Positions 2,981 to 29,846 of a stretch of DNA of 32,280 nucleotides are shown here, in pieces (position 1 is the stretch's first letter; each line of letters starts with the position of its first letter). The notes beneath the pieces are model-generated. The model did not search any database. It saw only the letters and a program-made list of their open reading frames with translations, and was not told where the DNA came from. This DNA comes from an uncultured delta proteobacterium (GTDB lineage Bacteria; Myxococcota_A; UBA9160; JAFDET01): positions 1-32,280 of the forward strand of contig CAMYLJ010000041.1 of NCBI GenBank assembly GCA_947259215.1, read 5' to 3'. A program made the position numbers and the translations under genes.

Positions 2981-3086
2981 GGCGCTGCCCACCTGGGCTG
3001 GCGCGGTGACCCCGGTCCATCGCATCATGGGGTCGAAATCCGATCCAGCCCGCCCGCCGCGCGATCGGCGGCCGAGGAGGTCCCCC

Positions 3087-4814
3087 ATGTCCACGATCAG
3101 CGTCGGTGAGCTTCTGGTCCGTTGCCTGAAGGCGGAGGGCATCGAGCTCGTGACCGGCATCATCGACGGAGCCCACATCCCGATCGTGGTGCACACCGCC
3201 AAGTACGGGATCCGCTACGTGAACGCCCACCACGAGGAGGCCGCGGTCCACGTGGCGGAGGGCTACTCGCGCATCGCGCGGCGGCCCGGCGTGGTGATCG
3301 GGAACCCGGGCTGCGGCACCGGGAACATGCTGGCTGGCGTGGTGAGCGCGCACGCGGAGGGGCATCCGATCGTCGCCATCGGGACCCTGCGGCCGCGCAT
3401 CAAGACCGACCCGAACCGCGGCGGCGCCTGGCAGGCGGCGGACACCGAGAGCATGGCGCGCCCGATCACGAAGTACGCGGCCACCGTGCGCCAGTGGGAG
3501 CGGCTCCCCGAGATGATGCGCGCCGCTTTCCGCGCGGCGATGACCGGGCGGCCGGGCCCGGCCTATCTGGCGATTCCAGACGAGCTGCTGCTCGAGGAGA
3601 TCGACGCGGACCGCCTGCCCCCGATCCACGAGGCGGAGCGCTACCGGGTCACGAACCTCGGGTCGGGCGATCCGGCCGCGATCGAGCGCGCCGCCGAGCT
3701 GCTGGGGAATGCGAAGCGGGTCTATGTGCACGCCGGCAAGGGCGTGTTGTGGGCCGACGGCGCCGAGGCGCTGCTCGCGCTCGGCGAGCACCTCGGCGCC
3801 TGCCTGGGCGCGAGCCTCGGTGCCCGCGGCGTCGTGCCCGAGGACCACCCGCATTACTTCCATCCCTTCGATCTGGCCGGCGCCGGCGCGGCGCGCAGCG
3901 AGGCGGAGGTGGTGCTGGTGGTGGGTGGCCGGCTCGGCGAGTACGACGCCTGGGGCGCGCCGCCCATGTGGGGCGATCCGGCCGGGCAGACCACCATCCA
4001 GATCGATTCGGACCCGATGTCGATCGGGCTGAACCGCCCGGTGGACCTCGGCATCGTGGCCGACGCCCGCGCGGCGCTGGAGGCGCTCCATCAGGCGGTG
4101 CGCGCCCGCAGCGAGGCCCGCGCCGAGCCGCCGGACCTGGCGCGCTACCGCGCCAAGAGCGCCGAGACCATGCAACAGGGGATCGGCTACCTCGGGTCCG
4201 AGTGCACCACGGGCGTGAACCCGGGGAAGATGGTGATGGCGGTGCGCCAGAAGTTCCCGCCCGAGGCGATCACGGTCCTCGACGGCGGCAATACGACCCT
4301 CACCGGTGTCGCCTTCCACCCGATCCTCTCGTCGCCGAGCTTCCTGTACTCCGTCAAGATGGGCTACCTCGGCACCGGTCTGCCCTTCGCGCTCGGCGCC
4401 AGCCTGGCGGCGCCCGACCGCCCCGTCTGCCTCATCACGGGCGATGGCGCCTTCGGCTTCCACGTGATGGAGCTCGAGACGGCCGTGCGCGAGGAGCTCC
4501 CGGTGGTGGTGCTGGTCGCGGTCGACGACGCCTGGGGGATGGAGAAGACGGCCTACCTGGCCATGGGCTACGACGCTGGGGACTGGGAGCGCCGCGGGAT
4601 CGACCTGGCGAGCGTCTCGTACGACGCCCTGGCGCGCAGCCTCGGCTGCCACAGCGAGCGCGTGGAGAAGGACGAAGAGCTCGAGCCCGCTCTCGAGCGC
4701 GCGATCGCGGCGGGCCGGCCCGCCGTGATCCACGTGCAGGTGGACCGCGAGCTCAACACGAAGCCCCCCGGCTGGGAGCAGTTCCGCGCGGCGCGGAGCG
4801 TGCAGGGCTACTGA
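3087..4814 (+). CDS. Thiamine diphosphate-dependent enzyme, acetolactate synthase/2-hydroxyacid decarboxylase superfamily
   Basis: A 575-aa protein. Start ATG 3087 is chosen because GAGGAGG lies six bases upstream; the in-frame start at 3006 has no such site. The domain order is typical: N-terminal Pyr domain with HHEEAAVHVAEGYSR (Glu50/51, the position of the ThDP-activating Glu), a central Rossmann-like domain (about 195-330), and a C-terminal PP domain with GDGAFG (residues 452-457). The GDG-x25-NN cofactor motif ends in Asp480-Asp481 rather than Asn-Asn. The length matches acetolactate synthase large subunits and related lyases and decarboxylases. No small regulatory subunit is nearby, so a biosynthetic AHAS is unlikely. 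A 2-oxoacid decarboxylase, carboligase or 2-hydroxyacyl-CoA lyase is more plausible. An epimerase-like gene follows 22 bp downstream. Confidence 0.88.
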   Translation: MSTISVGELLVRCLKAEGIELVTGIIDGAHIPIVVHTAKYGIRYVNAHHEEAAVHVAEGYSRIARRPGVVIGNPGCGTGNMLAGVVSAHAEGHPIVAIGTLRPRIKTDPNRGGAWQAADTESMARPITKYAATVRQWERLPEMMRAAFRAAMTGRPGPAYLAIPDELLLEEIDADRLPPIHEAERYRVTNLGSGDPAAIERAAELLGNAKRVYVHAGKGVLWADGAEALLALGEHLGACLGASLGARGVVPEDHPHYFHPFDLAGAGAARSEAEVVLVVGGRLGEYDAWGAPPMWGDPAGQTTIQIDSDPMSIGLNRPVDLGIVADARAALEALHQAVRARSEARAEPPDLARYRAKSAETMQQGIGYLGSECTTGVNPGKMVMAVRQKFPPEAITVLDGGNTTLTGVAFHPILSSPSFLYSVKMGYLGTGLPFALGASLAAPDRPVCLITGDGAFGFHVMELETAVREELPVVVLVAVDDAWGMEKTAYLAMGYDAGDWERRGIDLASVSYDALARSLGCHSERVEKDEELEPALERAIAAGRPAVIHVQVDRELNTKPPGWEQFRAARSVQGY

Positions 4815-4836
4815 GTCCGGCGGGGCGAGGGTCGCC

Positions 4837-5883
4837 ATGACGTCGCGCCCGGCGCCGGTCGGAGCTGAGGGCCAGACTCCGAAGCTACCGGGCCGCGTGT
4901 TCGTGACGGGCGCCGCCGGTTTCGTGGGTCGCGCGGTCCTCGCCCGCTACCGCGAGCTCGGCGTCGAGGTAGGCGGCATGGACGTGCGCGCCGACCCGGA
5001 CTGGAACGTCGTGGCTGGAGACCTCGGCGAGTCGGGTGCCTGGCAGAAGCACGCCGACGGCTGCGACCTCGTGGTCCACACGGCCGCGGTGGTCTCGAAC
5101 GTGGCGCCGCCGGAGCTGTACCGGCGCATCAGCGTGGCCGGCGTGCGCCGTGCGCTCGACGCCGCGGTCGCCGGCGGAGCCCGGCGCTTCCTGCACGTCT
5201 CTTCCGTCGGCGCCTACGGCTGGCACCGCCCGCCCGACGCCGACGAGAAGACTCCGATCACCGTGCTCTCCGGCAACGCCTACCAGGACGCCAAGGCGGC
5301 GAGCGAGCACCCGGCGCTCGCCGCTCACGCCTCCGGCGAGATCGCGTGCACGCTGGTGCGGCCTTCCGACGTGTACGGCCCGGGGTCAAGACCCTGGGTG
5401 CTGATCCCGCTGGAGATGATCCGCAAGGGGCTCTTCCTCCTGCCGGCCCACGGTCAGGGCCTCTTCTCGCCCGTCTACATCGACGACCTGGTGGACGGCA
5501 TCCTGCTGGCGGCGGGCCTGCCGGCCGGAGCCGGACAGATCTTCAACCTGCTCGGCGCGGCGCCCGTGCCCGCCGCCGAGTTCTTCGCGTACCACATGCG
5601 CTGGGCCGGACGCAGCGGCCCGCCCCGCAGTCTTTCGACGGGCACCGCGGTTCGGATTGCACGCGTCGTCGGCGCGCTCTCCAAGCTCCTGGGCCGACCC
5701 AGCGAAGCCAGCGCCCAGACCATGCTGATGCTGAGCAAATCCCATCCCCTCTCCGGGGAGAAGGCCCGCCGCCTGCTCGGCTACGAGCCCAAGGTCGGCC
5801 TGGCCGAGGGCATGCGCCGGACCGAGGCCTGGCTGCGCGAGCAGGGGCTCGTCGCGCGCCGGCCGGCCGGGGACCCCTTGTAA
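4837..5883 (+). CDS. NAD(P)-dependent epimerase/dehydratase (extended SDR)
   Basis: A 348-aa extended short-chain dehydrogenase/reductase. A Rossmann motif GAAGFVG is at residues 25-31, followed by a VxGDLG strand, VVHTAAVVS, HVSSVGAYG, and the active-site pair Tyr149-xxx-Lys153 in AYQDAK. A VRPSDVYGPG segment after it is typical of sugar epimerases and 3-beta-hydroxysteroid dehydrogenase-like members. The C-terminal half contains a short hydrophobic stretch and a final LGYEPKVGLAEGMRRTEAWL segment, the usual end of this family. Substrate could be a nucleotide sugar, sterol or polyketide-type ketone and is not decided by sequence. The gene begins 22 bp after the ThDP enzyme, so they are probably co-transcribed. 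Confidence 0.88.
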   Translation: MTSRPAPVGAEGQTPKLPGRVFVTGAAGFVGRAVLARYRELGVEVGGMDVRADPDWNVVAGDLGESGAWQKHADGCDLVVHTAAVVSNVAPPELYRRISVAGVRRALDAAVAGGARRFLHVSSVGAYGWHRPPDADEKTPITVLSGNAYQDAKAASEHPALAAHASGEIACTLVRPSDVYGPGSRPWVLIPLEMIRKGLFLLPAHGQGLFSPVYIDDLVDGILLAAGLPAGAGQIFNLLGAAPVPAAEFFAYHMRWAGRSGPPRSLSTGTAVRIARVVGALSKLLGRPSEASAQTMLMLSKSHPLSGEKARRLLGYEPKVGLAEGMRRTEAWLREQGLVARRPAGDPL

Positions 5884-5896
5884 GAGGCTACTTTCG

Positions 5897-5932
5897 CTGG
5901 AGTTTCTCCTCCAGGCCCGGATGCTTCGGGCC
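5897..5932 (+). other. Two adjacent short hairpins between epimerase and hydrolase genes
   Basis: CTGGAG (5897-5902) pairs with CTCCAG (5909-5914) across a 6-base loop. GGCCCG (5914-5919) pairs with CGGGCC (5927-5932) across a 7-base loop. The two stems share one base, so they are nearly stacked. They begin 13 bases after the epimerase stop. There is no T-run, so this is not a classical intrinsic terminator; attenuation or a processing site is possible. Confidence 0.35.
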
Positions 5933-5973
5933 GGCGGGCGGTCCGGCCCACGAGTGCGAGAATCAGGGCTGCG

Positions 5974-6864
5974 ATGGATCTGCGCGAGATCACGATCCAC
6001 GACCAGCGCGTCACGTACCGCACGGCCGGCGAGGGCCCGGTGTTGCTGCTGATCCACGGGATGGCTGGCAGCGCCACCACCTGGAAGCAGGTGATGCCTC
6101 GACTGGCCGAGTGCTTCACGGTGGTGGCGCCGGACCTGCTCGGGCACGGCCGCTCGGACAAGCCGTCAGGCGACTACTCGCTCGGCGCCTTCGCGAGCGG
6201 CCTGCGCGATCTGCTCGTCGCGCTCGGCCACGAGCGCGCCACCGTGGTGGGCCAGTCGCTCGGCGGCGGGGTCGCCATGCAGCTCACCTACCAGTACCCG
6301 GAGCGCTGCGAGCGGCTCGTGCTCGTGGGCGCCGGGGGGCTGGGCGTCGAGGTCAATCCGCTGCTGCGCTACCTCACCCTTCCCGGCTCCGAAGCCGTGC
6401 TGCGGCTGGCCTGTGCGGCGCCGATTCGCGGTACGGTCGAGGCCGTCGCCGGCCTGGCGTCCCGGCTCGGGCTGGAGCCGGCGGCGGTCGTGGTCGAGCT
6501 GTGGCGGAGCTACGCGTCGCTCGCCGACGACGACACGCGCAAGGCCTTCCTGCGCACCCTGCGGGCGGTCGTCGACCCTCGCGGCCAGGCCGTGAGCGCC
6601 GCGAACCGCCTGCACCTGGCGGCAGAGGTGCCCACCCTGATCGTCTGGGGCGACGCCGACCCGATCATCCCCGTCGACCACGCCGCCGAGGCGCACGCCG
6701 CCATCCCGAGCAGTCGGCTCGAGATCTTCGAAGGCTGCGGTCACTATCCCCACTGCGAGGCGCCCGAGCGCTTCGTGGAGGTGCTGACCGAGTTCATCGA
6801 GACGACGATCCCCGCCCGGATCACCGTCGCGTCGCACCACGTGCTGCGCTCGACCGGCAGCTAG
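5974..6864 (+). CDS. Alpha/beta-fold hydrolase
   Basis: A 296-aa protein with all elements of the alpha/beta hydrolase catalytic machinery: oxyanion-loop segment LLIHGMAGS, DLLGHGRSDKP, nucleophile elbow GQSLGGG with Ser95, acid in WGDADPIIP (Asp229), and histidine in GCGHYPH (His257). A helical cap (about 125-200) lies between the nucleophile and the acid. Hydrolases of this shape include meta-cleavage product hydrolases, haloalkane dehalogenase-like enzymes, esterases and epoxide hydrolases. The Ser nucleophile excludes dehalogenase and epoxide hydrolase chemistry, which use Asp. It is the last of the plus-strand genes starting at 2333 and ends facing the convergent NnrS gene. Substrate is unknown. 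Confidence 0.88.
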   Translation: MDLREITIHDQRVTYRTAGEGPVLLLIHGMAGSATTWKQVMPRLAECFTVVAPDLLGHGRSDKPSGDYSLGAFASGLRDLLVALGHERATVVGQSLGGGVAMQLTYQYPERCERLVLVGAGGLGVEVNPLLRYLTLPGSEAVLRLACAAPIRGTVEAVAGLASRLGLEPAAVVVELWRSYASLADDDTRKAFLRTLRAVVDPRGQAVSAANRLHLAAEVPTLIVWGDADPIIPVDHAAEAHAAIPSSRLEIFEGCGHYPHCEAPERFVEVLTEFIETTIPARITVASHHVLRSTGS

Positions 6865-9813: not shown

Positions 9814-11646
9814 TCAAGGCGCCTTGCGCCAGGCCCCGAGCTTCTCCTGGATGAGCGGCAGCGCGTTTCGCGCCGCCTCGGCCCCGCGCGCGATCATCGG
9901 CTCGCCCGCCCAGAACTCGAGCAGCCAGAACTCCTTCAGCTCCGGGTTGATGAGCACGTCGGCGTCGCCGGCGCGGTCGTTGCCGAGCTGGTATTGCATC
10001 AGCTGGATCGTGCGCATGAGGGCGTCGAAGCCGCCGGGGAGCCGGCGCTGCTCCTCGCTGCGCAGGCGAGCCAGCGGGTTCAGCTTGCCGGCGGCGGCCA
10101 GGATGCGGTCCAGCGGGTTGCGCACGTCCGGGTCGAGGGGCGGCACGACGTTCACCGCGATCACCAGGTCCGCTCCCATGCGGCGCGCGGTCTCCGCCGG
10201 CACCGGGTCCACCATGCCGCCGTCGATGTAGACGCCGTCGCCGATGCGGTAGGGGGAGAGGATCGCCGGCGCGGCGAAGCTGGCGTGCACGGCGTCGGCC
10301 AGCTCGCCCTCGCGGAGCTCCGCGCGGGCGCCGGTCTCGATGTCGGTCGCCACGGCACGGAACGGGATGCGCAGGTCGTTGAAGGTGCGGCCGGTGATGG
10401 GCCCGATGGAGGCCAGGACCTTCTTGAAGTGCTCGCCGGCGAAGAGCCCGGGCTTCACCGGGTTGAAGTCGGCCGCCAGGTAGAGGAGCTCGGGCATGAT
10501 GCCCAGGAAGTCCCGCAAGGTCTTCACGCGGGTGGCCATCTCGTGCAGGTCGGACGGTGGCATGCCGAGCGCGTAGTGCGCTCCGACGATCGCCCCCATG
10601 CTGGCGCCGGAGACCGCGTCCACGGGGATGCCGGCGTCCTCCAGCACCTCGAGCACACCGATGTGGGCCAGCCCCCAGGCGGCCCCGCTGCCGAGGGCCA
10701 GGCCGACGCTGTGCCCGCACAGGCTGCGGGCCAGGCGCTCCACGCTGCGGGTGCGGTCGGGCTCCTCGGCGGCCAGGGGGATCAGGTCCAGGCCCGACAC
10801 CGGCGGACCGCGGCCGTCGCGGCGATCGTGCACGAAGATCACCCGTCGGGCGGCAGAGCTCGGCTGCGGCAGCGTCTCGCCCTCGACGCGCTGGACGAGT
10901 ACGTCCGCCTGCATGCCGAGCCTCACGTCCCGCAGCGACTCGTGGATCTCGCCGAAGACGAAGCCCACCTGTCCCATCCGTTCGCCCAGCTCCCGGTTCA
11001 CGCGCGCGCGCATCGCTGCGGGATCGTCCAGCTCGCCGGCGCTCACCCAGTCGCGGCCGCCCGAGCGCAGAGGCTTCACGCGACCCGCCGCTCGCCCCGA
11101 GGCGAAGGTCGCCACGGCGACCGAACGACCCGATTCCTGCTCCACGGCTTCCGCCAGGGCGCGCAGGAACCTGCGCCGGGCGCCCCACTTGCCCTCGCTC
11201 CGGAAGGCGACGATCTGGCAACCCTCCTGGCGCGCGCCCTCGAGCAGGATGTCGAGACTGCGCGCCAGCATGCGGCTGAACTCCTCGGAGAAGTCCGCGG
11301 GCTGGAGCTCCCGGAAACGCGGCGCCCGCTCCCGGCGCAGGAGCAGCAGGCGGCAGTCGATCGCCGCGGTCGCGGTGGCGCGCCGGCGGTCGTCTGCGAC
11401 GAGGGCCGTGCCGAAGGTCTCGCCGGGAGTCAGGCGCACGAGGGTGCGGTCCCCCGTCGAGAGATCCACCGCGCCTTCGACCAGCAGGTAGCTGGCGTCC
11501 CCGTCCTCTCCCTCCCGGAACAGCAACGCGCCTTGGGGAACGGTCCGCTCCTCGAAGAGCTCCGCGACCTCTTCCTGCCGGGATTCGGGGAGGTCCCGAA
11601 GCCAGGGGGAAGCGAAGAGCGCCCGGCGAGCCTGGGGGGTGAGCAT
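9814..11646 (-). CDS. Cyclic-nucleotide-binding-domain patatin-like phospholipase (NTE-like)
   Basis: A 610-aa protein from ATG 11646. Residues about 10-110 form a cNMP-binding-type beta-roll (VPQGALLFREGEDGDASYLLVEGAV, then LTPGETFG). Residues about 140-300 form a linker domain like that of bacterial neuropathy-target-esterase homologues, with no intact P-loop. The patatin domain starts near 312: oxyanion loop GSGAAWGLAHIG (319-330), nucleophile GASMG with Ser349, and catalytic Asp475 in YIDGGMVDP. The usual Arg of the GGGxRG oxyanion loop is Trp here. Members are serine esterases or lysophospholipases acting on membrane lipids. The gene lies 5 bp downstream of an acyltransferase gene on the same strand, which suggests linked lipid remodelling. 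Whether a cyclic nucleotide is really bound cannot be told from sequence. Confidence 0.9.
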   Translation of the reverse strand: MLTPQARRALFASPWLRDLPESRQEEVAELFEERTVPQGALLFREGEDGDASYLLVEGAVDLSTGDRTLVRLTPGETFGTALVADDRRRATATAAIDCRLLLLRRERAPRFRELQPADFSEEFSRMLARSLDILLEGARQEGCQIVAFRSEGKWGARRRFLRALAEAVEQESGRSVAVATFASGRAAGRVKPLRSGGRDWVSAGELDDPAAMRARVNRELGERMGQVGFVFGEIHESLRDVRLGMQADVLVQRVEGETLPQPSSAARRVIFVHDRRDGRGPPVSGLDLIPLAAEEPDRTRSVERLARSLCGHSVGLALGSGAAWGLAHIGVLEVLEDAGIPVDAVSGASMGAIVGAHYALGMPPSDLHEMATRVKTLRDFLGIMPELLYLAADFNPVKPGLFAGEHFKKVLASIGPITGRTFNDLRIPFRAVATDIETGARAELREGELADAVHASFAAPAILSPYRIGDGVYIDGGMVDPVPAETARRMGADLVIAVNVVPPLDPDVRNPLDRILAAAGKLNPLARLRSEEQRRLPGGFDALMRTIQLMQYQLGNDRAGDADVLINPELKEFWLLEFWAGEPMIARGAEAARNALPLIQEKLGAWRKAP

Positions 11647-11651
11647 CGTGT

Positions 11652-12599
11652 CTAGACTCCGATCTGTCGCAGCACCCGCTGCAGGGAGCGGATTCCGCCG
11701 TCGAGGAGGTCTCCGTGATGGTGGCGCCGCGCCACGGCGGCGTCGAGGAAGCGCTGGCATGTGCTCCAGACGCGGCCGTGCAGCTCCTCCAGCGCCTCGG
11801 GATCGCGCAGGGCGCGGCGGCGGTCGCCCAGATCGAGGGGCTCGGAGACGCTGTGGGTGATGCGCACGGGGAACGGGAGCAGGGCGGGAAGGAGGTGCGG
11901 GCCGGCGGCTCCGATGCGCAGGCGCAGGCCGCGGTAGCGGGACGCGTCCTCGCCGGCCAGGGTCCGCAGCAGCGCGCCGGGCGTCGGAAGCCGCGACTGG
12001 TAGTAGGCCTCGTCGCTTCCCACGGCGGCGACGAACACGACCTCCGCGTCGGCCTCGAGGGCGAGGCGGAGGTAGCCGGTGCGCTCCTGCCACTGGAGGG
12101 TGTACGGCTCGCGGTGGTAGTCGCGCATGCCGGACTCGCGCACGCCGCCCGGGTAGAGCATGAGGAATCCGTGGCTCCGCACGGCCTCCACGGTCTCCTC
12201 GGGGTGGCGGGCCGGGATCACGCGGAAGTGGCGCGCGAACTCGCGCAGCACGGGAATCCGGAACCAGGCCTCGTGGGCGATGAAGTGCGGCAGGCGGCCG
12301 GTGCGGGCGTGGACCTGGGCCAGCAGCAGCGTCGGGTCGACCACGTCGAGGGCGTGGTTCCCTACCAGGATGACGCGGCGTCCGTCCGCGAAGAGGCGCT
12401 CCAGCCGCTCCAGCTGGAGCACGCGATGCCGGTGGTAGCGGCCCAACGCGCCGGCCAGGGACAGGCCGCTGCGCAGGAGCCAGTCCCCGGCGTCCACCAG
12501 CGGGGCGGGCGCCGCCGGCACGAGCTCGGCGCCGCTGCGCCCCGCGCGGCGCGGCTGCGTCGCTCTCTCCGCCGCTCCCGTGCCGGGCGCCGGGCTCAC
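11652..12599 (-). CDS. Glycerolipid acyltransferase-like protein (PlsC/DGAT-like)
   Basis: A 315-aa protein with a GTG start at 12599. The GTGA overlaps the stop of the upstream gene, which favours it over longer in-frame starts lying opposite or inside that gene. Acyltransferase landmarks are VGNHALDVVDP (residues 79-89), corresponding to the NHxxxxD region, and LYPGGVRESG (148-157), corresponding to the substrate-binding PEG/PGG block. The acidic residue after the His is spaced atypically (H-x2-D and H-x5-D rather than H-x4-D). The length and PGGxRE block are closer to DGAT2-like and bacterial lysophospholipid acyltransferase members than to classical PlsC. It likely transfers acyl groups to a glycerolipid at the inner membrane. 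It sits between the secreted unknown protein and the patatin phospholipase in one tight operon. Confidence 0.85.
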   Translation of the reverse strand: MSPAPGTGAAERATQPRRAGRSGAELVPAAPAPLVDAGDWLLRSGLSLAGALGRYHRHRVLQLERLERLFADGRRVILVGNHALDVVDPTLLLAQVHARTGRLPHFIAHEAWFRIPVLREFARHFRVIPARHPEETVEAVRSHGFLMLYPGGVRESGMRDYHREPYTLQWQERTGYLRLALEADAEVVFVAAVGSDEAYYQSRLPTPGALLRTLAGEDASRYRGLRLRIGAAGPHLLPALLPFPVRITHSVSEPLDLGDRRRALRDPEALEELHGRVWSTCQRFLDAAVARRHHHGDLLDGGIRSLQRVLRQIGV

Positions 12600-13645: not shown

Positions 13646-13782
13646 GCCCAGATCGTTAACAGATGGGTTCGGGGAGGGCGACGATCGGAACGTGTGGATT
13701 CCGCTCCGCAATCGATCCTCCATCCTCTCTGGATCGCCGGGTCTGGCGCCCCCGGGCGCTGCGACGTAGCGTCCGGCTCGCC

Positions 13783-15348
13783 GTGAAGCTCCTCGCCGTA
13801 CACCCGAGCAGCCTGATGTACTCCCGGGTCTTCCTGCGGCTCGAGCCGCTGGGCCTGGAGCTCGTGGCCGAGGCGGCCCGTCAGCGCGGTCACCAGGTGC
13901 GGCTCCTCGACCTCCAGGCGGCCAGCCACGCGGAGTACCGCAAGATCCTGGACGAGTGGCGGCCGGACGCGGTGGCCTTCGCGGTCAACTACCTGGCCAA
14001 CGTGCCCGAGGTGATCGACCTCGCGACCGAGACGAAGCAGCGGCTCCCGGGCTGCTACGTGGCGGTCGGCGGCCACAGCGCCTCCTTCACCGCGAACGAG
14101 CTGCTGGAGCACGCCCAGGGCGCCATCGACTGCGTCCTCAAGGGCGAGGGCGAGGCCAGCTTCCCGGGGCTGCTCGAGGCCGTGGAGCAGGACCGGGGCG
14201 CCGTCCACGAGATCCCGGGCGCCGTTACCCTCGAGGGCGAGGGCCCGCCGCCGCGCTTCGTGGAGAGCCTCGACGACCTCCACCCGGCGCGCGACCTGCT
14301 GCCGAAGCGGCGCAAGTACTTCATCGGCGTGATGGACCCGTGCGCGTCCATCGAGTTCAGTCGCGGCTGCCCCTGGGACTGCACCTTCTGCAGCGCCTGG
14401 ACGTTCTACGGCCGCAGCTACCGCTTGCTGAGCCCGGAGCGCGCCGTCGAGGATCTCTCCCGCATCCGCGAGCCCGGGGTCTTCATCGTCGACGACGTGG
14501 CCTTCATCCGCGAGAAGCACGGCATGGCGATCGGCGAGGCCCTGGCCAGCAAGGGGATCCAGAAGCGGTACTACCTGGAGACCCGCGGCGACGTGCTGCT
14601 GCGCAACAAGGACGTGTTCCGGTACTGGCGCAAGCTCGGCCTCGAGTACATGTTCCTCGGCCTGGAGGCGATCGACGAGGAGGGCCTCAAGAAGTACCGC
14701 AAGCGCGTTCCGCTGAGCGTGAACTACGAGGCCCTCGAGTTCGCCCGCTCCCTGGACATGGCCGTCGCGATCAACATCATCGCGGATCCCGACTGGGACG
14801 AGCAGCGCTTCGAGGTGGTGCGCCAGTGGTGCCTCGAGGTGCCCGAGATCGTGAACCTGACGGTGAACACGCCCTACCCCGGAACCGAGACCTGGCACAC
14901 CGAGGCGCGCCGGCTCACGAGCCGCGACTACCGGCTCTTCGACATCCAGCACGCGGTGCTGCCCACGCGCATGCCCCTGCCGAGGTTCTACGAGGAGCTG
15001 GTGAAGACGCAGCAGGTGCTGAACAAGAAGCACATGGGCTGGGCGCCGATGGCCGAGGTGGCGAAGATCGCGGCGGGCCACCTGCTGCGCGGCCAGACCA
15101 ACTTCCTCAAGATGCTCTGGAAGTTCAACAGCGTCTACGATCCGAAGCTCCAGATCGCCGATCACGCGCAGCCGGTGCGCTACGAGATCTCGCCGCCGCC
15201 GGAGCTGCGCGCGACTCCGAAGCGGGGCGCGCTCTACGTCCACGGCTCCCGTGGGCGCGCGGGGCGCGAGCTCGACGACGCCACCGAGAGCTTCGTGGAC
15301 GCCACGCGCGTGGGCGGGCCGGCACCGGCGCCGCCTCGCGCGGGCTAG
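13783..15348 (+). CDS. hpnR: B12-binding radical SAM protein, probable hopanoid C-3 methylase
   Basis: A 521-aa protein starting with GTG at 13783 (VKLLAVHPSS). The upstream in-frame ATG at 13663 would add a basic, low-complexity leader. The N-terminal cobalamin-binding domain (about 1-140) contains GLELVAEAARQRGH, RPDAVAFAVNYLANVPE and VAVGGHSASF. The radical SAM core carries the 4Fe-4S cluster motif CxxxCxxC as Cys196, Cys200 and Cys203. This architecture and sequence agree with my recollection of HpnR, which methylates C-3 of hopanoids; I could not check by search. No other hopanoid genes (shc, hpnH and others) are in the window. It diverges from the lipid operon and is overlapped at its 3' end by the P-type ATPase frame. 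Confidence 0.72.
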   Translation: MKLLAVHPSSLMYSRVFLRLEPLGLELVAEAARQRGHQVRLLDLQAASHAEYRKILDEWRPDAVAFAVNYLANVPEVIDLATETKQRLPGCYVAVGGHSASFTANELLEHAQGAIDCVLKGEGEASFPGLLEAVEQDRGAVHEIPGAVTLEGEGPPPRFVESLDDLHPARDLLPKRRKYFIGVMDPCASIEFSRGCPWDCTFCSAWTFYGRSYRLLSPERAVEDLSRIREPGVFIVDDVAFIREKHGMAIGEALASKGIQKRYYLETRGDVLLRNKDVFRYWRKLGLEYMFLGLEAIDEEGLKKYRKRVPLSVNYEALEFARSLDMAVAINIIADPDWDEQRFEVVRQWCLEVPEIVNLTVNTPYPGTETWHTEARRLTSRDYRLFDIQHAVLPTRMPLPRFYEELVKTQQVLNKKHMGWAPMAEVAKIAAGHLLRGQTNFLKMLWKFNSVYDPKLQIADHAQPVRYEISPPPELRATPKRGALYVHGSRGRAGRELDDATESFVDATRVGGPAPAPPRAG

Positions 15349-17815
15349 CGCCGTCGCCGCCCGCGGCCTCACCAGCGCCGACGCGCGCCGGCTGCTCGCC
15401 GAGCACGGGCCCAACGCGCTGCCGGAAGCGCCGCCCGTGCCGCTCTGGCGGCGCTTCCTGCGCCAGCTCCAGAGCGCCTTGATCTACGTGCTGATCCTCG
15501 CGCTGGTGGTGGACCTCGGGGCGTGGCTGCTCGAGGGAGCCGAAGACGTTCCCTTCGAGTCCATCGCGATCGCTGCCATCCTGATCCTGAACTCCGTGCT
15601 CGGCGTGTGGCAGGAGTACCGGGCGGAGAACACGCTGGCGAGCCTGCGCGAGCTCGAGGCGCCGCAGGTGTGGGTGCTCCGCGACGGGCGGCTCGCGCGC
15701 GTGGTGAGCCGCGACGTGGTGCCCGGCGACGTGGCGCGCATCACGGCCGGCGGACGGGTGCCGGCGGATGCAAAGGTGGACGACGAGCAGGGCCTGATGC
15801 TCGACGAGTCGATCCTGACGGGGGAGTCGGTGCCCGTCGAGAAGGAGCCGGGCGCCGAGGTCTTCGCCGGAACCCTGGTGGTGCGCGGGAGCGCCTGGGC
15901 GCAGGTCACGCGCACCGGGCCAGCCAGCAGCATGGGGCGCATCGCCGGGATGCTGGGCGAGGTGGAGGCCGAGCGCACGCCCCTGGAGCAGCGCCTCGAC
16001 GTGTTCGGGGCGCAGATCGCGCGCTGGGTGCTGGCGCTCTCGGTGGCGCTGGTGGCGGGCAACGTGGCGTTGCAGGGCTGGGAGCGGCTCGACGACGCCT
16101 TCCTGTGGGCCGTCGCCCTGGCGGTGGCCGCCATCCCGGAAGGGCTGCCCGCGGTGCTGGCCCTGACCCTGGCGCTCGGCGTGGAGCGCATGTCGAAGCG
16201 CCGCGCGGTGGTGCGCAAGCTCGCGGCCGTCGAGGCGCTGGGTTCCGTGACCGTGATCGCCACCGACAAGACCGGCACCATCACCGAGAACCGCATGCTG
16301 GTCCGGCAGCTCGAGAGCCCCGACCCGGCGCGCGCGCTGCGCGCCATGGTGCTGGCCAGCGACGCCGATCCCGACGCCGGCGGCGATCCCCTCGAGGCGG
16401 GCCTGTTCGGGTACGCGCGCGAGCACGGCCTGGATCCCGTCGCGCTGCGCCTGGCCTGCCCGCGTCAGGCCGAGCGCTCCTTCGACAGCGCCTGGAAGTT
16501 CATGCGCGTGACCGTGCAGGAGGACGGCGCGCTCGCGAGCTACCTGAAGGGAGCGCCCGAGGTGCTGCTCGAACGCTGCGCGCTCTCGCCGGACGAGCGC
16601 CGGAGCTGGGTCGAGCGCTCCGCGCGCTACGCCGCCGAGGGCCTGCGCGTGCTGGCCCTGGCCCGCGGGAGCGGCGAGGCGGAATCGGACCTCGAGTGGC
16701 TCGGGCTCGTGCTCTTCTGGGATCCGCCGCGCGCCGAGGTGCCCGACGCCGTGCGCGCGGCCCGCGCGGCCGGCGTGCGCGTGCTGATGATCACCGGCGA
16801 CCATCCGTTTACGGCGGCGTCCGTGGCCCGCATGGTCGGCATCGACGGCGATCGGGTCGTGACGGGCGACGATCTCGCGGAGCGGGGGCCCGAGGCCCTG
16901 CGCGAGCTGGTGGCCGAGGTGGACGTCTTCGCCCGCGTGTCGCCCGCGCACAAGATGGCGCTGGTGGAGGCGCTGCGCGCGCGCGGCGAGGTGGTGGCGG
17001 TGACGGGCGACGGCGTGAACGACGCGCCGGCCCTGAAGCGCTCCGACGTGGGCGTCGCCATGGGCCAGCGCGGCAGCGACGTCTCGCGCGAGGTGGCCGA
17101 CCTGGTCCTGCTCGACGACAACTTCGCCACCATCGTCGCCGCGATCGAGGAAGGTCGGAACATCTACGAGAACATCCAGACCTTCATTCGCTTCCTGTTC
17201 TCGACCAACGTCGCACTGGTGCTCCTCGTCTCCGTCGGCGCCGTCGGGGCGGCGGCGTTCGGCCTGCGCGACGCCGCCGGCGCGCTGCTGGTTCCCCTGA
17301 CCGCGGCGCAGCTGCTGTGGGTGAACATCATCGCCGACGGCCCGCCGGCCCTGGCGGTGGGGCTCGACCGCACACCCGGCGTCATGAAGCGCCCCCCGCG
17401 CCGGCGCGACGCCGCGCTCTTCGACGCCCCCGCGATCCGTTTCGTGCTCGTGACCGGCGGCGTCAAGGCGGCCGTCGGGATCGTGATGCTGGTGGCGCTG
17501 CCCGTGCTGGGCCTCACCAGCATCGCCACCCGGACGGCGGTGTTCCTGTACGAAACCCTGGCCCAGCTGGCCTTCGTGTACCCGTCGCGGGCGCTCAGCT
17601 TCCGCCCGCTGCCGAACCGGGTGCTCAACACGATCGTCGTCGTGAGCGTGCTGCTCCAGCCCGCCATCGTCTTCCTGCCGGGCATGCGGAAGATGCTGGG
17701 CCTCGAAGGGCTCGCGCTGATCGCCTGGGGCTGTGTGGCGGGGGGCGTGCTCTTCTCGTGGCTCTTCGCCGAGGTCTACACGCGGCGCGCCCGGAGCCGC
17801 GCCAGCGAAGCCTAG
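15251..17815 (+). CDS. P-type cation-transporting ATPase, P2 (Ca2+-like) type
   Basis: An 854-aa P2-type ATPase. It has an N-terminal cation-ATPase segment ([21 protein letters not shown]), actuator TGES, M4 with IPEGLP, the phosphorylation loop DKTGT with Asp339, MITGDH, hinge TGDGVNDAP, and M5-M10 with [17 protein letters not shown] and [13 protein letters not shown]. Compared with SERCA, the M4 Glu and M6 Asn/Asp are kept but the M5 Glu of site I is hydrophobic. This fits a single-site, PMCA-like Ca2+ or Mn2+ pump; the ion is an inference. GTG 15251 is the only usual start codon before the conserved region. It gives an unconserved leader of about 35 residues and a 98-nt overlap with the end of the radical SAM gene, so the true start is uncertain. 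Confidence 0.9.
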
Positions 17816-18884: not shown

Positions 18885-19214
18885 GTGCGGTGGGGAAAAT
18901 CGCTCCACAGATGCGGAACGAGTTTTCCATTCCACGGTTTCGACTGCGCGGGCGCCAACTCGTCCGGTGTGGGCGTCCCCACTGGCACCCCGTATTCGTG
19001 GGTCTTCGACATCGAGATGGCTGCCGGGGACCTCTTTACAGGTCCCTTCCAGGCGTCCATCAAGGCGCGCTACGCCGATAACTCCGGCAAGAAGGTGGGC
19101 GATCTCGTCTCCGAGAACATCACCCTGATGGTCCCCGAGCCCAGCGCCGGCGCCCTTCTGGGCCTGGGCCTTGGCATGAGCGGTCTGGCGCTCTTCAGGC
19201 CCCGCCGGCGCTAG
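18885..19214 (+). pseudogene. Decayed PEP-CTERM protein gene (C-terminal remnant)
   Basis: The frame encodes 109 residues from a GTG with no ribosome-binding site and no N-terminal signal peptide. The C-terminus is a textbook PEP-CTERM sorting tail: VPEPSAG, a hydrophobic LLGLGLGMSGLALF span, then RPRRR. Before it, GVPTGTPYSWVFDIEM and ASIKARYADNSGKKVGDLVSENITL look like the end of a secreted beta-rich ectodomain. PEP-CTERM proteins need a Sec signal and are processed by an exosortase. Without the N-terminus this copy cannot be exported, so I call it a truncated pseudogene. The 134 bp upstream (18751-18884) shows no recognisable missing N-terminus in another frame. No exosortase gene is in the window. 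Confidence 0.65.
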
Positions 19215-19224
19215 GCGCGAGCCG

Positions 19225-20109
19225 TCAGAGGACGGCCGTACCCGCCGGCTCCTCGACCACGCCGTTTTCGATCTCCCCCACGCCGTCGATCGCGATCCGC
19301 ACGACGTCGCCCACCTTCAGCAGCTGGGGCGGCTTCATCGCGATCCCGACGCCGCCCGGCGTCCCGGTGACGATCACGTCGCCGGGCTCGAGGGTGAAGG
19401 CCGTGGACAGGTGCTCGATCAGCGCGAAGCAGTCGAAGATCAGGTTCTTGGTGTTGGACGACTGGCGCAGCTCCCCGTTCACCCAGGTCTTGAGGTCGAG
19501 CGAGTGGGGATCGGGCACCTCGTCGGCGGTCACGATCCAGGGGCCGAGCGGGCAGTGGGTGTCGAAGGACTTGCCCATGGTCCAGGTCGGCACCCGCAGC
19601 TGCCAGTCGCGCACGGTGACATCGTTGGCGACCGCGTAGCCGGCGATCACCTCGCCCGCGCGATCCGCGGGTACGTGCCGGCAGCGCCGACCGATCACCA
19701 GCGCGAGCTCGCCTTCGTAGTCCAGCACGTGCGACGCGCGCGGCAGGTGGAAGGGATCGTAGGGCGGATGCGCCGCGGTCGACTGCTTGTTGAAGACCAT
19801 GGGGAAGTCCGGGATCTTCATGCCGGCCTCCTTGGCCTCCTCCACGTGGTCGCGGTAGTTGACGCCGATGGCCAGGATCTTCGGCGGGCGCAGGATCGGC
19901 GACTCCAGGTGCACCTGGTCCAGGGGCAGGCGCGAGCCACCTGCGGCCAGCGCGGCCCGGGCGGCGTCCAGGGCGGTCTCCCCCGCTGTGAGGAAGGCGC
20001 ACATCTCGGTCGGAAGATCCGGCGCGGCGCTCGAGAGGTTGACCACCTCTTCGCCGTCGACGAGGCCGATCCGGGTGCTGCCCTGATGGGTGAAGGTGAC
20101 GAGCTTCAT
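19225..20109 (-). CDS. Fumarylacetoacetate hydrolase family protein
   Basis: A 294-aa single-chain FAH-fold enzyme. The N-terminal small domain begins MKLVTFTHQGSTRIGLVDG. The catalytic beta-barrel includes ILAIGVNYRDHVEEA (with the His-Glu pair), DYEGELALVIGR giving Glu132 and Glu134, ANDVTVRD giving Asp163 as third metal ligand, and the C-terminal GDVIVTGTPGGVG. Members are Mg2+ or Mn2+ enzymes that hydrolyse or isomerise ring-cleavage products, including 2-hydroxyhepta-2,4-diene-1,7-dioate isomerase, acylpyruvases and 2-keto-4-pentenoate-hydratase relatives. It lies 3 bp after an extradiol dioxygenase gene on the same strand, so processing of the meta-cleavage product is the most likely role. 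The exact substrate is not determined. Confidence 0.92.
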   Translation of the reverse strand: MKLVTFTHQGSTRIGLVDGEEVVNLSSAAPDLPTEMCAFLTAGETALDAARAALAAGGSRLPLDQVHLESPILRPPKILAIGVNYRDHVEEAKEAGMKIPDFPMVFNKQSTAAHPPYDPFHLPRASHVLDYEGELALVIGRRCRHVPADRAGEVIAGYAVANDVTVRDWQLRVPTWTMGKSFDTHCPLGPWIVTADEVPDPHSLDLKTWVNGELRQSSNTKNLIFDCFALIEHLSTAFTLEPGDVIVTGTPGGVGIAMKPPQLLKVGDVVRIAIDGVGEIENGVVEEPAGTAVL

Positions 20110-20112
20110 GGT

Positions 20113-21045
20113 TCAGCGTCCTGCCTGTTCGCGCGCCTTGGCGATGTCGCCGAGGTCGCTGGGGTTGAAGAAGATCTCGGGCGGCGTGGCCGGGCCCCAG
20201 ACGGAGAACTCGTTGCCGGCCCAGTCCGTGCCTTCCTTCCAGGCGTCGTCGTCCGGGATGAAGTCCATGTCGGTGAAGAACTCGAACATGTTGCCGGCCG
20301 GGTCGAGCATGTACCAGTAGACGTTCGAGCCGATCACGTGCCGGCCGATCCCGACCACGTGGCGATCCTCGTCCTCGTGCCGGCGCAGGTAGCTCGAGGC
20401 GGCGTGGGCCAGGGCGTCGATGTCGTCGTGCTCGAAGGCGTAGTGGTTCAGGTAGGGGACCGGGCCCGGCGCCAGCAGCAGGTTGTGGTGGTCGCCGGAG
20501 CAGCGCAGGAAGGAGGCGATGCCGAGGATCGTGTCGCTGGGCCGGAAGCCCAGGCCCTCGACGTAGAACTCGCGCGCCTTCTTGGGGTCGGGAGTCCCGA
20601 GCACCACGTGGCCGAGGCGCCGCGGCGGGCGGTTCTCCGCGACCAGCACCGCGTACTCCCGGTCGAGCTCGCGCGTGCGCGCGCCCGGCCCGTTGCGTGC
20701 GCGCGGCGGTACCTGGGAGAGGCGGACCGGGTCGCTCACCTCCACCGCGACCTCGTGATCGTTCACGGGGTCGTTGCAGCGGAGGGTCCCGTCCGCGATC
20801 CGCGAGGCCACGCCCAGACCCTCCAGCCGGCGCGCGATCTCGGACAGGTCGGCCTCGCTCTCGCAGCCGACCCGCATGGTCAGGAGCTGCCGCCACGGCG
20901 CCTCCTCGACCCGGATCTGCCTGGGGACGTCCGCGGTCCCCCAGAGCCCGTCGGTCCGGGCGAGCCCGATCTCCTGGTAGAAGTCGTGGAGGACGTCGGG
21001 CTCCGTGGCCCCGATCTCCATTCCGAGGAAGCTGTGCAGTGCCAT
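20113..21045 (-). CDS. Extradiol ring-cleavage dioxygenase (type I, VOC/BphC-like)
   Basis: A 310-aa two-domain vicinal-oxygen-chelate protein. The N-terminal domain (about 1-130) lacks metal ligands, as usual. The C-terminal domain has the Fe(II) triad in the expected places: His146 in RLGHVVLG, His201 in YLNHYAFE and Glu255 in GNMFEFF. The second-shell pair is His186/187 (SGDHHNLLL) and a Tyr in SNVYWYM. This is the pattern of 2,3-dihydroxybiphenyl or catechol 2,3-dioxygenases. A strong AGGAGG site lies seven bases before ATG 21045. It is the first gene of the minus-strand unit with the FAH hydrolase and diverges from a flavin monooxygenase, so it most likely cleaves the catechol that the monooxygenase makes. 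A steroid-type catechol cannot be excluded. Confidence 0.92.
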   Translation of the reverse strand: MALHSFLGMEIGATEPDVLHDFYQEIGLARTDGLWGTADVPRQIRVEEAPWRQLLTMRVGCESEADLSEIARRLEGLGVASRIADGTLRCNDPVNDHEVAVEVSDPVRLSQVPPRARNGPGARTRELDREYAVLVAENRPPRRLGHVVLGTPDPKKAREFYVEGLGFRPSDTILGIASFLRCSGDHHNLLLAPGPVPYLNHYAFEHDDIDALAHAASSYLRRHEDEDRHVVGIGRHVIGSNVYWYMLDPAGNMFEFFTDMDFIPDDDAWKEGTDWAGNEFSVWGPATPPEIFFNPSDLGDIAKAREQAGR

Positions 21046-27929: not shown

Positions 27930-27941
27930 GCGCCTAGGCGC
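27930..27941. repeat. 12-bp perfect palindrome at convergent gene ends
   Basis: GCGCCTAGGCGC reads identically on both strands and contains the stop codon of the P450 gene (27934-27936). It lies 12 bp after the pckA stop. It may help termination of the two convergent transcripts, but no T-tract follows on either side. Confidence 0.35.
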
Positions 27942-29184
27942 CTCGCGCGATCCGGTAGCGGATCGGCAGGTGCTTCAGCCCGACGACGAAGCTCGAGCGG
28001 ATCCACTCGGGCTCGCCCGTCAGCTCCACGTGCTCCAGGCGCCGGGACAGCTCCCCGAAGAGCGCCCGCTGCGAGCGCCGCGCCAGGTGCGCCCCGAGGC
28101 AGAAGTGCTCGCCGATCCCGAAGCCCAGGTGCCGGTTCGGATGCCGGTCGACGCGGAAGGCGAAGGGATCGTCGAAGACGTCCTCGTCGCGGTTCGCCGA
28201 GGAGTAGAAGAGCACCAGGGCGTCGCCCTCGCGGATCTTCTGCTCGCCCACCTCGGTGTCGCAGGCCGCCGTGCGCTGCATGTAGTTGACCGGCGAGGTC
28301 CAGCGCACCACCTCCTCGACGGCGGTCGGCACGAGGTCCGGGTTGGCGCGCAGCTTCTCGAGCTGGTCCGGGCGCTCGATCAGGGCGCGCATGCCGCCGA
28401 CCAGGGCGTTCTTGGTCGTGTCGTGGCCCGCGGTGAAGGTGATCAGGTAGTAGCCGAAGGTCTCCATCGGCCCCATCAGCTCGCCGTCGATCTTGCCGTT
28501 GGCCAGCACGCTGGCCAGGTCGTCGCGCGGGTTCTTGCGGCGCTCCTCGATGATCCCGGCGAAGAGCTGGAAGAGCTCGAGGCCGAGCTCGCGCATGGCC
28601 TCGTTCCGGCTCTGGCCCTCGCGCCGGAGCTCCGGGTCGTCCGCCGCGAAGAGCTGGTTGGTGAGCCGCAGGATGCGCGGCTCCTCTTCGCGCGAGACCC
28701 CGAGGATGGTGGACAGGATCCGCAGCGGGTGCGCCGCCGCCACGTCGATGGCGAAGTCGCACTCGCCCTCGCCGGTTTCGCCGGCGAGCTGGTCCACGAG
28801 TCGTCGAGCGCTCTCGTCCACCGCGGCGTCGATCCGGCCCAGCGCGCGGGGCGTGAACCACGGGCTCGCGATCTTGCGGTAGTCCCGGTGCTCCGGCGGG
28901 TCCATCTCGATGATCGTGCGCATGGCGCCGATCCCCTCCTGGCGCGAGAGCTCCTGGTCGTCGCGCACGACGACGATGCCCGGCGAGCTGAGGAAGAGGT
29001 CCGGCCGCTTCGAGATGTCGGTGATATGGGCGTGCTTCGTGATGGCCCAGAAGGGCGGATGGTTCCGCGGGTGGAAACGGTGCACGGGCGCGTGGCGCCG
29101 CAGCTGGGCGAAGGTCTCGTGGGGCGGGCCGCTCTCGCCGTAGGGTTCGGTGCCGATGAGGTCGTAGCCGTCGGTCAGTTCCAT
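27934..29184 (-). CDS. Cytochrome P450
   Basis: A 416-aa bacterial soluble P450 from ATG 29184, with GGAGG about nine bases upstream; the longer in-frame extension is rejected. It has the I-helix oxygen-activation motif AGHDTT (252-257), the K-helix ExxR (Glu291 to Arg294), and the haem-binding loop FGIGEHFCLGAHLARR with Cys362 as thiolate ligand. N-terminal FAQLRRHAPVHRF and MDPPEHRDYRKIASPWFTPRAL resemble class I P450s acting on lipids, terpenoids or steroids, including the CYP125/CYP142-like group, but the substrate cannot be assigned. No ferredoxin or ferredoxin reductase is adjacent, so electrons must come from elsewhere. It is 32 bp downstream of a TetR gene on the same strand and is presumably under its control. 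Confidence 0.96.
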   Translation of the reverse strand: MELTDGYDLIGTEPYGESGPPHETFAQLRRHAPVHRFHPRNHPPFWAITKHAHITDISKRPDLFLSSPGIVVVRDDQELSRQEGIGAMRTIIEMDPPEHRDYRKIASPWFTPRALGRIDAAVDESARRLVDQLAGETGEGECDFAIDVAAAHPLRILSTILGVSREEEPRILRLTNQLFAADDPELRREGQSRNEAMRELGLELFQLFAGIIEERRKNPRDDLASVLANGKIDGELMGPMETFGYYLITFTAGHDTTKNALVGGMRALIERPDQLEKLRANPDLVPTAVEEVVRWTSPVNYMQRTAACDTEVGEQKIREGDALVLFYSSANRDEDVFDDPFAFRVDRHPNRHLGFGIGEHFCLGAHLARRSQRALFGELSRRLEHVELTGEPEWIRSSFVVGLKHLPIRYRIARGA

Positions 29185-29216
29185 GGGTTCTGCCTCCACG
29201 CAGGACGGGGTCCGGA

Positions 29217-29846
29217 TCAGGTACGGGGCCCGGCCGCGAGGCCCAGGCCGGGCAGCAGCCGTCGCCGCAGGAATGCGCGCAGCGCGGCCGGGCTGCGCCG
29301 CGGCTCGGGGGCCGTCATCAGGGCCAGCAGCAAGCGCAGCATGAGCTCGATCGCCTCGTCGGCCTCCGCGTCGCTCCAGCCGGCATTGGCCACCAGCTCT
29401 GCCAGCGCCTCGCGGCTCCACGCGACGGCCTCGGCCCCGGTGGTGGCCTCCAGGGCCGCCGCGTCGAGGGCGGTCGAGTTCCAGACCTGGCACAGGATCG
29501 GATCGCGGCGCATCTCGCGCAGCGCAAACAGCATGGCTTCGATGGCCTGGCGGCCGGGATCCCCGAAACGCTTCAGATGCGCGGCCAGTCGGCCCGTGAG
29601 CCGGCTGCCGGCGCGCAGCAAGGTGGCTTCCACCAGCGCTCGCCGATCGGCGAAGTAGCGATACACCGTGGGCCGGCTGACCCCGGCCTCGAGCGCCACC
29701 GCCGCGATCCCGGTGGCGGGCAGGCCGTCGCGGGCCACGCAGCGGGCGGCCGCGTCGAGCAGCCGCTCGCGCGCGGCGCTGCGCTGGGGCGGGTCGCCGG
29801 CCCAGGCCGCGCGCTCGGACGATCTCCTGAGGGCGGTTGACGCCAT
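29217..29846 (-). CDS. TetR/AcrR family regulator of the P450 operon
   Basis: A 209-aa TetR protein from ATG 29846. An in-frame GTG at 29882 is also open but would begin inside the palindromic operator, so the ATG is preferred. The DNA-binding domain (about residues 23-75) has ARERLLDAAARCVARDGLPATGI, the helix-turn-helix AVALEAGVSRPTVYRYF and the ADRRALVEA hinge. The C-terminal ligand domain is helical and unassigned. It lies immediately upstream of the P450 gene, so the two are probably one transcript. The palindrome at 29869-29891, 23 bp upstream of the start, is well placed for autorepression and for control of the divergent gene at 29913. Confidence 0.92.
   Translation of the reverse strand: MASTALRRSSERAAWAGDPPQRSAARERLLDAAARCVARDGLPATGIAAVALEAGVSRPTVYRYFADRRALVEATLLRAGSRLTGRLAAHLKRFGDPGRQAIEAMLFALREMRRDPILCQVWNSTALDAAALEATTGAEAVAWSREALAELVANAGWSDAEADEAIELMLRLLLALMTAPEPRRSPAALRAFLRRRLLPGLGLAAGPRT

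Follow-up and report, generated by a model that had tools for sequence, protein, structure and literature searches.

The window, i.e., the whole stretch of DNA under study, spanning positions 1 to 32,280 of contig 41 in an uncultured Myxococcota genome (5.70 Mb in 128 contigs; completeness 95.74%, contamination 0.82%), carries a gene which encodes, with a probability of about 0.93 as judged from profile and column comparisons, the hopanoid C-3 methylase HpnR. The predicted product would methylate the A ring of hopanoids at C-3, as a radical SAM methylase that depends on cobalamin. In enzymes of this class, a [4Fe-4S] cluster on three cysteines cleaves S-adenosylmethionine, the resulting radical abstracts a hydrogen (here that at C-3), and methylcobalamin gives the methyl group. 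At somewhat better than even odds, an uncultured, probably aerobic and putatively non-methanotrophic Myxococcota lineage gained hpnR in one or two transfers, makes 3-methylhopanoids and has gone unrecognised as a source of the 3-methylhopane biomarker.

The longest ORF at the hpnR locus spans 13663-15348 (561 aa from an ATG). The match to the HpnR profile starts with the first residue of the 521-aa product, so the GTG at 13783 fits as the start (Table 1). Against the NCBIfam model for HpnR (TIGR04367), the 521-aa protein scored 895.4 bits (cut-off 650; E = 7.7e-270), with positions 1-488 of the 490-position profile aligned to residues 1-488 of the protein; at such an E-value a chance match is of no concern. 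Both the B12-binding and the Radical_SAM domains of Pfam were recovered together with an intact CxxxCxxC motif, confirming the architecture that had been read from the sequence in the initial annotation.

Table 1. Features of the hpnR locus and other annotated genes in the window, with supporting matches.
Feature	Position	Strand	Basis and remarks
cNMP-binding + patatin phospholipase neighbour	9814..11634	-	PF00027 51.5, PF01734 104.3 bits; start approximate
Acyltransferase neighbour	11652..12518	-	PF01553 42.1 bits, cut-off 23; start approximate
Secreted-looking protein, unknown family, 375 aa	12596..13723	-	Start = longest ORF; not part of HpnR system
hpnR, probable hopanoid C-3 methylase	13783..15348	+	521 aa, GTG start; TIGR04367 895.4 bits
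HpnR B12-binding domain, residues 19-130	13837..14172	+	PF02310 71.1 bits, cut-off 32.1
HpnR radical SAM domain, residues 190-349	14350..14829	+	PF04055 59.9 bits, cut-off 29.5
HpnR CxxxCxxC motif CPWDCTFC, Cys196/Cys200/Cys203	14368..14391	+	Sequence
P-type cation ATPase, downstream, overlaps hpnR end	15335..17815	+	Start approximate; longest ORF from 15251
Small PEP-CTERM sorting-signal protein	18885..19214	+	TIGR02595 21.4 bits, cut-off 16

The protein was further compared by alignment column with 93 other HpnR (80 proteins from named loci, L096 and 12 further ones) and 11 paralogues. Of the 183 columns with a constancy of 98% or more among those 93, it retained 181, the exceptions being M in place of L at 184 and T in place of S at 360. 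Moreover, 45 of the 183 near-invariant columns were absent from all 11 paralogues, and 44 of these 45 were retained. Identity to HpnR of named Methylococcaceae, Nitrospirota, Burkholderiaceae and Acetobacteraceae records was 63-73%. On the other hand, solved structures were remote by sequence: only four matched at E<=0.001, the best being 9ccb (39.5 bits), followed by 6fd2, OxsB and TokK entries.

The HpnR of Methylococcus capsulatus, reportedly the protein of Welander and Summons in 2012, is the natural point of reference. The likeness to it covers the full-length TIGR04367 match, the domain order, the CxxxCxxC motif, the near-invariant columns and the hopanoid genes alongside, while the host differs, being here an uncultured member of the Myxococcota. 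A different B12-radical SAM subfamily that merely resembles HpnR might in principle produce part of this picture, given the size of the superfamily, with 140 of the 188 phylum genomes sampled matching the HpnR model at some level (E<=0.001). Yet the best such match outside the own genome reached 240 bits in this 188-genome sample, as against 893 here. In the profile comparison that the initial annotation had proposed, HpnR was far the best model; BchE (TIGR02026), which shares the B12 plus radical SAM architecture, came next but reached just 151.9 of the 481.35 bits required by its cut-off, HpnJ (TIGR03471) gave 52.8 bits against 577.6, and no other profile outscored HpnR. Such a look-alike can thus practically be discounted, and the other B12-radical SAM subfamilies were dropped, none of them beating HpnR among the NCBIfam models.

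The other check proposed at the outset, for a squalene-hopene cyclase (SHC) elsewhere in the genome, located shc on contig 56 amid a hopanoid cluster. This cluster lies entirely on the minus strand and holds dxs (674.7 bits), hpnD (277.1 bits, 1.5 under the cut-off of 278.6), idi (363.2 bits), hpnC (287.5 bits, cut-off 250), hpnE (383.4 bits, cut-off 283), shc (TIGR01507, 780.2 bits, cut-off 431.1), an hpnG-like gene and hpnH (521.2 bits, cut-off 225). The hpnG-like gene between shc and hpnH scored 86.7 bits to the HpnG model, under the cut-off of 187; this model was also matched below cut-off in 12 of 14 control genomes, so HpnG function is suggested by cluster position only. Ten B12-binding domain matches were found in the genome, seven over the Pfam cut-off, HpnR among them. 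With HpnR as the best model and hopanoid genes present, the identification therefore stood on both counts on which the initial annotation had offered to give it up, i.e., a better match to another subfamily or a genome free of hopanoid synthesis genes.

In the pathway that these genes suggest, squalene would be made by HpnC, HpnD and HpnE of contig 56 and converted into hopene by SHC; HpnH and the HpnG-like protein would then extend the side chain, so that HpnR would draw its substrate from a pathway encoded on a different contig of the genome. We infer from sequence that the HpnR enzyme works. Production of 3-methylhopanoids by the cell is likely rather than certain, because four of the 12 hpnR-bearing species in an alphaproteobacterial survey made none (PMC12583986). 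According to the same source, the genome of Rhodopseudomonas palustris lacks hpnR, and in Alphaproteobacteria hpnR usually lies apart from other hopanoid genes (PMC12583986); here hpnR (contig 41) and the hopanoid cluster (contig 56) are on separate contigs.

Since the assembly consists of 128 contigs, and since the three other genomes of the own family that were searched (85-92% complete) matched SHC while HpnR was not found in them, it has to be weighed whether the contig, with a genuine HpnR gene on it, stems from another species and was binned here in error. Several lines of evidence speak against such contamination: i) tetranucleotide frequencies of three parts of the window correlated at 0.855-0.870 with the contig stretch that holds the hopanoid cluster; ii) for the middle part of the window, the correlation was 0.72-0.81 with three same-order loci, as against 0.39-0.60 with five named loci from other groups; iii) codon usage of hpnR correlated at 0.981 with that of 12 other window genes; iv) the FAH gene in the window was 82.6% identical over 161 residues to a gene of the same order (at locus L120); v) HpnR was present in two other genomes of the order. 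We thus consider a foreign contig highly improbable, and it was dropped on the composition match to the contig 56 stretch and the same-order FAH relative. The codon usage correlation of 0.981, together with a GC3 of 0.971, also means that hpnR is not marked as a recent arrival.

Among 79 genomes of the order, HpnR was found at E<=1e-100 in three: the own genome and two of one genus in another family. In a phylum sample of 377 genomes, HpnR exceeded the cut-off in the same three, all in one order; when only phylum genomes with completeness of 90% or more and contamination of 5% or less were counted, it was 3/235, and in a smaller phylum sample 1/188. Thus hpnR is very rare in this phylum, in the sample searched. 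SHC (PF13249, E<=1e-30) was matched in 25 of the 79 genomes, of which at least two (G213 and G216, just 146-149 bits) may not be SHC, and HpnH (E<=1e-50) in 24, 23 of them over cut-off. Both were matched in 21 genomes (in one of these, G189, HpnH was only a fragment below cut-off), and all three HpnR genomes were among the 21. By arithmetic the probability of three out of three falling within 21 of 79 is ~0.017, but two of the three genomes share a genus, making this a weak association. One of the other HpnR, that of Deltaproteobacteria bacterium isolate SJ448 (L075, part of G192; by NCBI ranks Myxococcota, class Myxococcia), belongs to the same order, and its genome likewise has SHC and HpnH. 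Its HpnR is ~70% identical to that of the window, whereas its neighbours differ and its SHC and HpnH scores are lower (322.5 and 397.6 bits, as against 395.6 and 522.6 in the window genome). The L075 record agrees letter by letter with a stretch of G192, and it is indirectly, through this shared order, that the genome of the window is assigned to Myxococcota.

Identity was 73% to the HpnR of L002, a named Methylococcaceae, and ~70% to the two others of the own order. HpnR is present twice in the genome of L002 (G234, a Methylococcaceae MAG), with identities of 73% and 71% to the window protein, and the order of L002 has 13 HpnR genes in 12 of 61 genomes (65-73%). HpnR of two Planctomycetota MAGs (L031 and L054) were 68-69% identical. 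For tree building, 5 of 37 Burkholderia-type rows and 5 of 27 rows from Acetobacter, Gluconobacter and Gluconacetobacter were kept, and L095 was left out as a duplicate of L075. One tree included as outgroup four of the 11 paralogues, from the same phylum; the other was built with all 11 left out. The four-paralogue outgroup, in which branches measured as much as 8.86 changes per column, did not settle the deepest branching of HpnR. In the tree without outgroup, the three HpnR of the order lay on one side of a branch with support of 57/20, within a 97/94 set that also contained a Pirellulales MAG; L054, on a long branch, grouped with the HpnR of the order at this 97/94 support. Forcing the window HpnR together with the Methylococcaceae-order rows, 12 out of 13, was not rejected (p-AU 0.24); this group was named after the tree had been seen, and it leaves out L139, placed elsewhere by the tree. 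The tree would thus accommodate either one gain of hpnR in the order with losses or separate gains, and does not tell them apart.

The genes that diverge from hpnR were real as initially described: a secreted-looking unknown protein, a glycerolipid-type acyltransferase (PF01553) and a cNMP-patatin protein, separated from hpnR by at least 59 bases by ORF starts. It had been suggested that they provide a membrane-lipid context for HpnR, and joint action of HpnR with this operon in membrane-lipid remodelling has in its favor the divergent arrangement and the fact that two of the three genes belong to lipid-acting families. We compared 11 neighbour proteins by tblastn (E<=1e-8) with 80 named HpnR loci, kept from 179 relatives, whose flanks extended to 8 kb at most and less where a contig ended. 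The comparison also took in 11 loci of paralogues, the order's two further HpnR regions and the contig stretch with the hopanoid cluster of the own genome. The secreted protein, the acyltransferase and the patatin had no match at E<=1e-8 at the 80 HpnR loci or in the order's two other HpnR regions; over all the loci compared, the only matches at this threshold were to the universal stress protein (four loci, 31-34% identity) and the P-type ATPase (three loci, 31-35%). Nor was an acyltransferase or patatin match found at E<=1e-4 at 19 loci with relatives of the secreted protein (flanks of ~1.5 kb, some shorter). As the operon proteins did not recur at the other HpnR loci compared, HpnR function gains no support from the lipid operon next to it; a joint role is very unlikely, and the functional tie was dropped.

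Relatives of the secreted-looking protein (26-36% identity) occur in 29 of the 79 genomes of the order, the own genome included, where a second copy lies on contig 33. Neither Pfam nor NCBIfam gave a match to the protein (E<=0.001), which possibly represents an undescribed family. One of the 19 loci (L120) has, besides the FAH relative mentioned above, a relative (35%) of the dioxygenase-like gene of the window. Downstream of hpnR, the P-type ATPase matched TIGR01494 with 311.8 bits (cut-off 62.3), its best model being TIGR01522 (533 bits, under the cut-off of 798). At the two other HpnR regions of the order, hpnR is adjoined by a beta-N-acetylglucosaminidase, an amidase, an alpha/beta hydrolase, a Na+/H+ antiporter and an FAD oxidoreductase with a C-terminal domain of the alpha-glycerophosphate-oxidase type (L097), and by an amidase, a molybdopterin oxidoreductase, a Na+/H+ exchanger and CstA (L098). 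An amidase and some cation antiporter are thus common to both, and the window has a cation ATPase; we take this amidase/cation-transporter likeness among the order's HpnR loci as chance.

Patchy occurrence of hpnR has been described before: PMC5462960 gives the gene for three out of 38 genomes of Burkholderia, eight out of 43 of Streptomyces and one out of eight of Methylobacterium, each of them also carrying shc, and documents scattered hpnR inside shc-bearing groups, Acidobacteria included. The occurrence in Myxococcota therefore extends a known pattern, adding a lineage to those that have this known gene. The literature searched contained no previous account of hpnR from Myxococcota, which is a weak negative given that most subscription papers were outside its scope. 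Within that literature, PMC11868695 mentions hopanoids a single time, in the title of a reference, and PMC4919349 contains one mention each of 3-methylhopanes and myxobacteria. According to PMC12583986, 3-methylhopanes in rocks are taken as traces of aerobic methanotrophs. Every added lineage with hpnR, here an uncultured Myxococcota order, weakens this reading, and the list of organisms possibly behind the 3-methylhopane fossil signal becomes slightly longer.

Elsewhere in the window, TPP-enzyme-like, epimerase-like, alpha/beta hydrolase, FAH-family, extradiol-dioxygenase-like and P450-like genes lie at 3006-6864, 19225-21045 and 27934-29493, their best NCBIfam matches all being under cut-offs. 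The epimerase-like protein is not HpnA by profile test, because its best model, HpnA, gave 92.3 bits against a cut-off of 367.65. Taken as a set, the genes of these three stretches hint at aerobic ring degradation, and the lineage is probably aerobic because of the dioxygenase- and P450-like genes in the window. The small PEP-CTERM protein also matched PF07589 of Pfam with 19.7 bits, just under the cut-off of 20.7.
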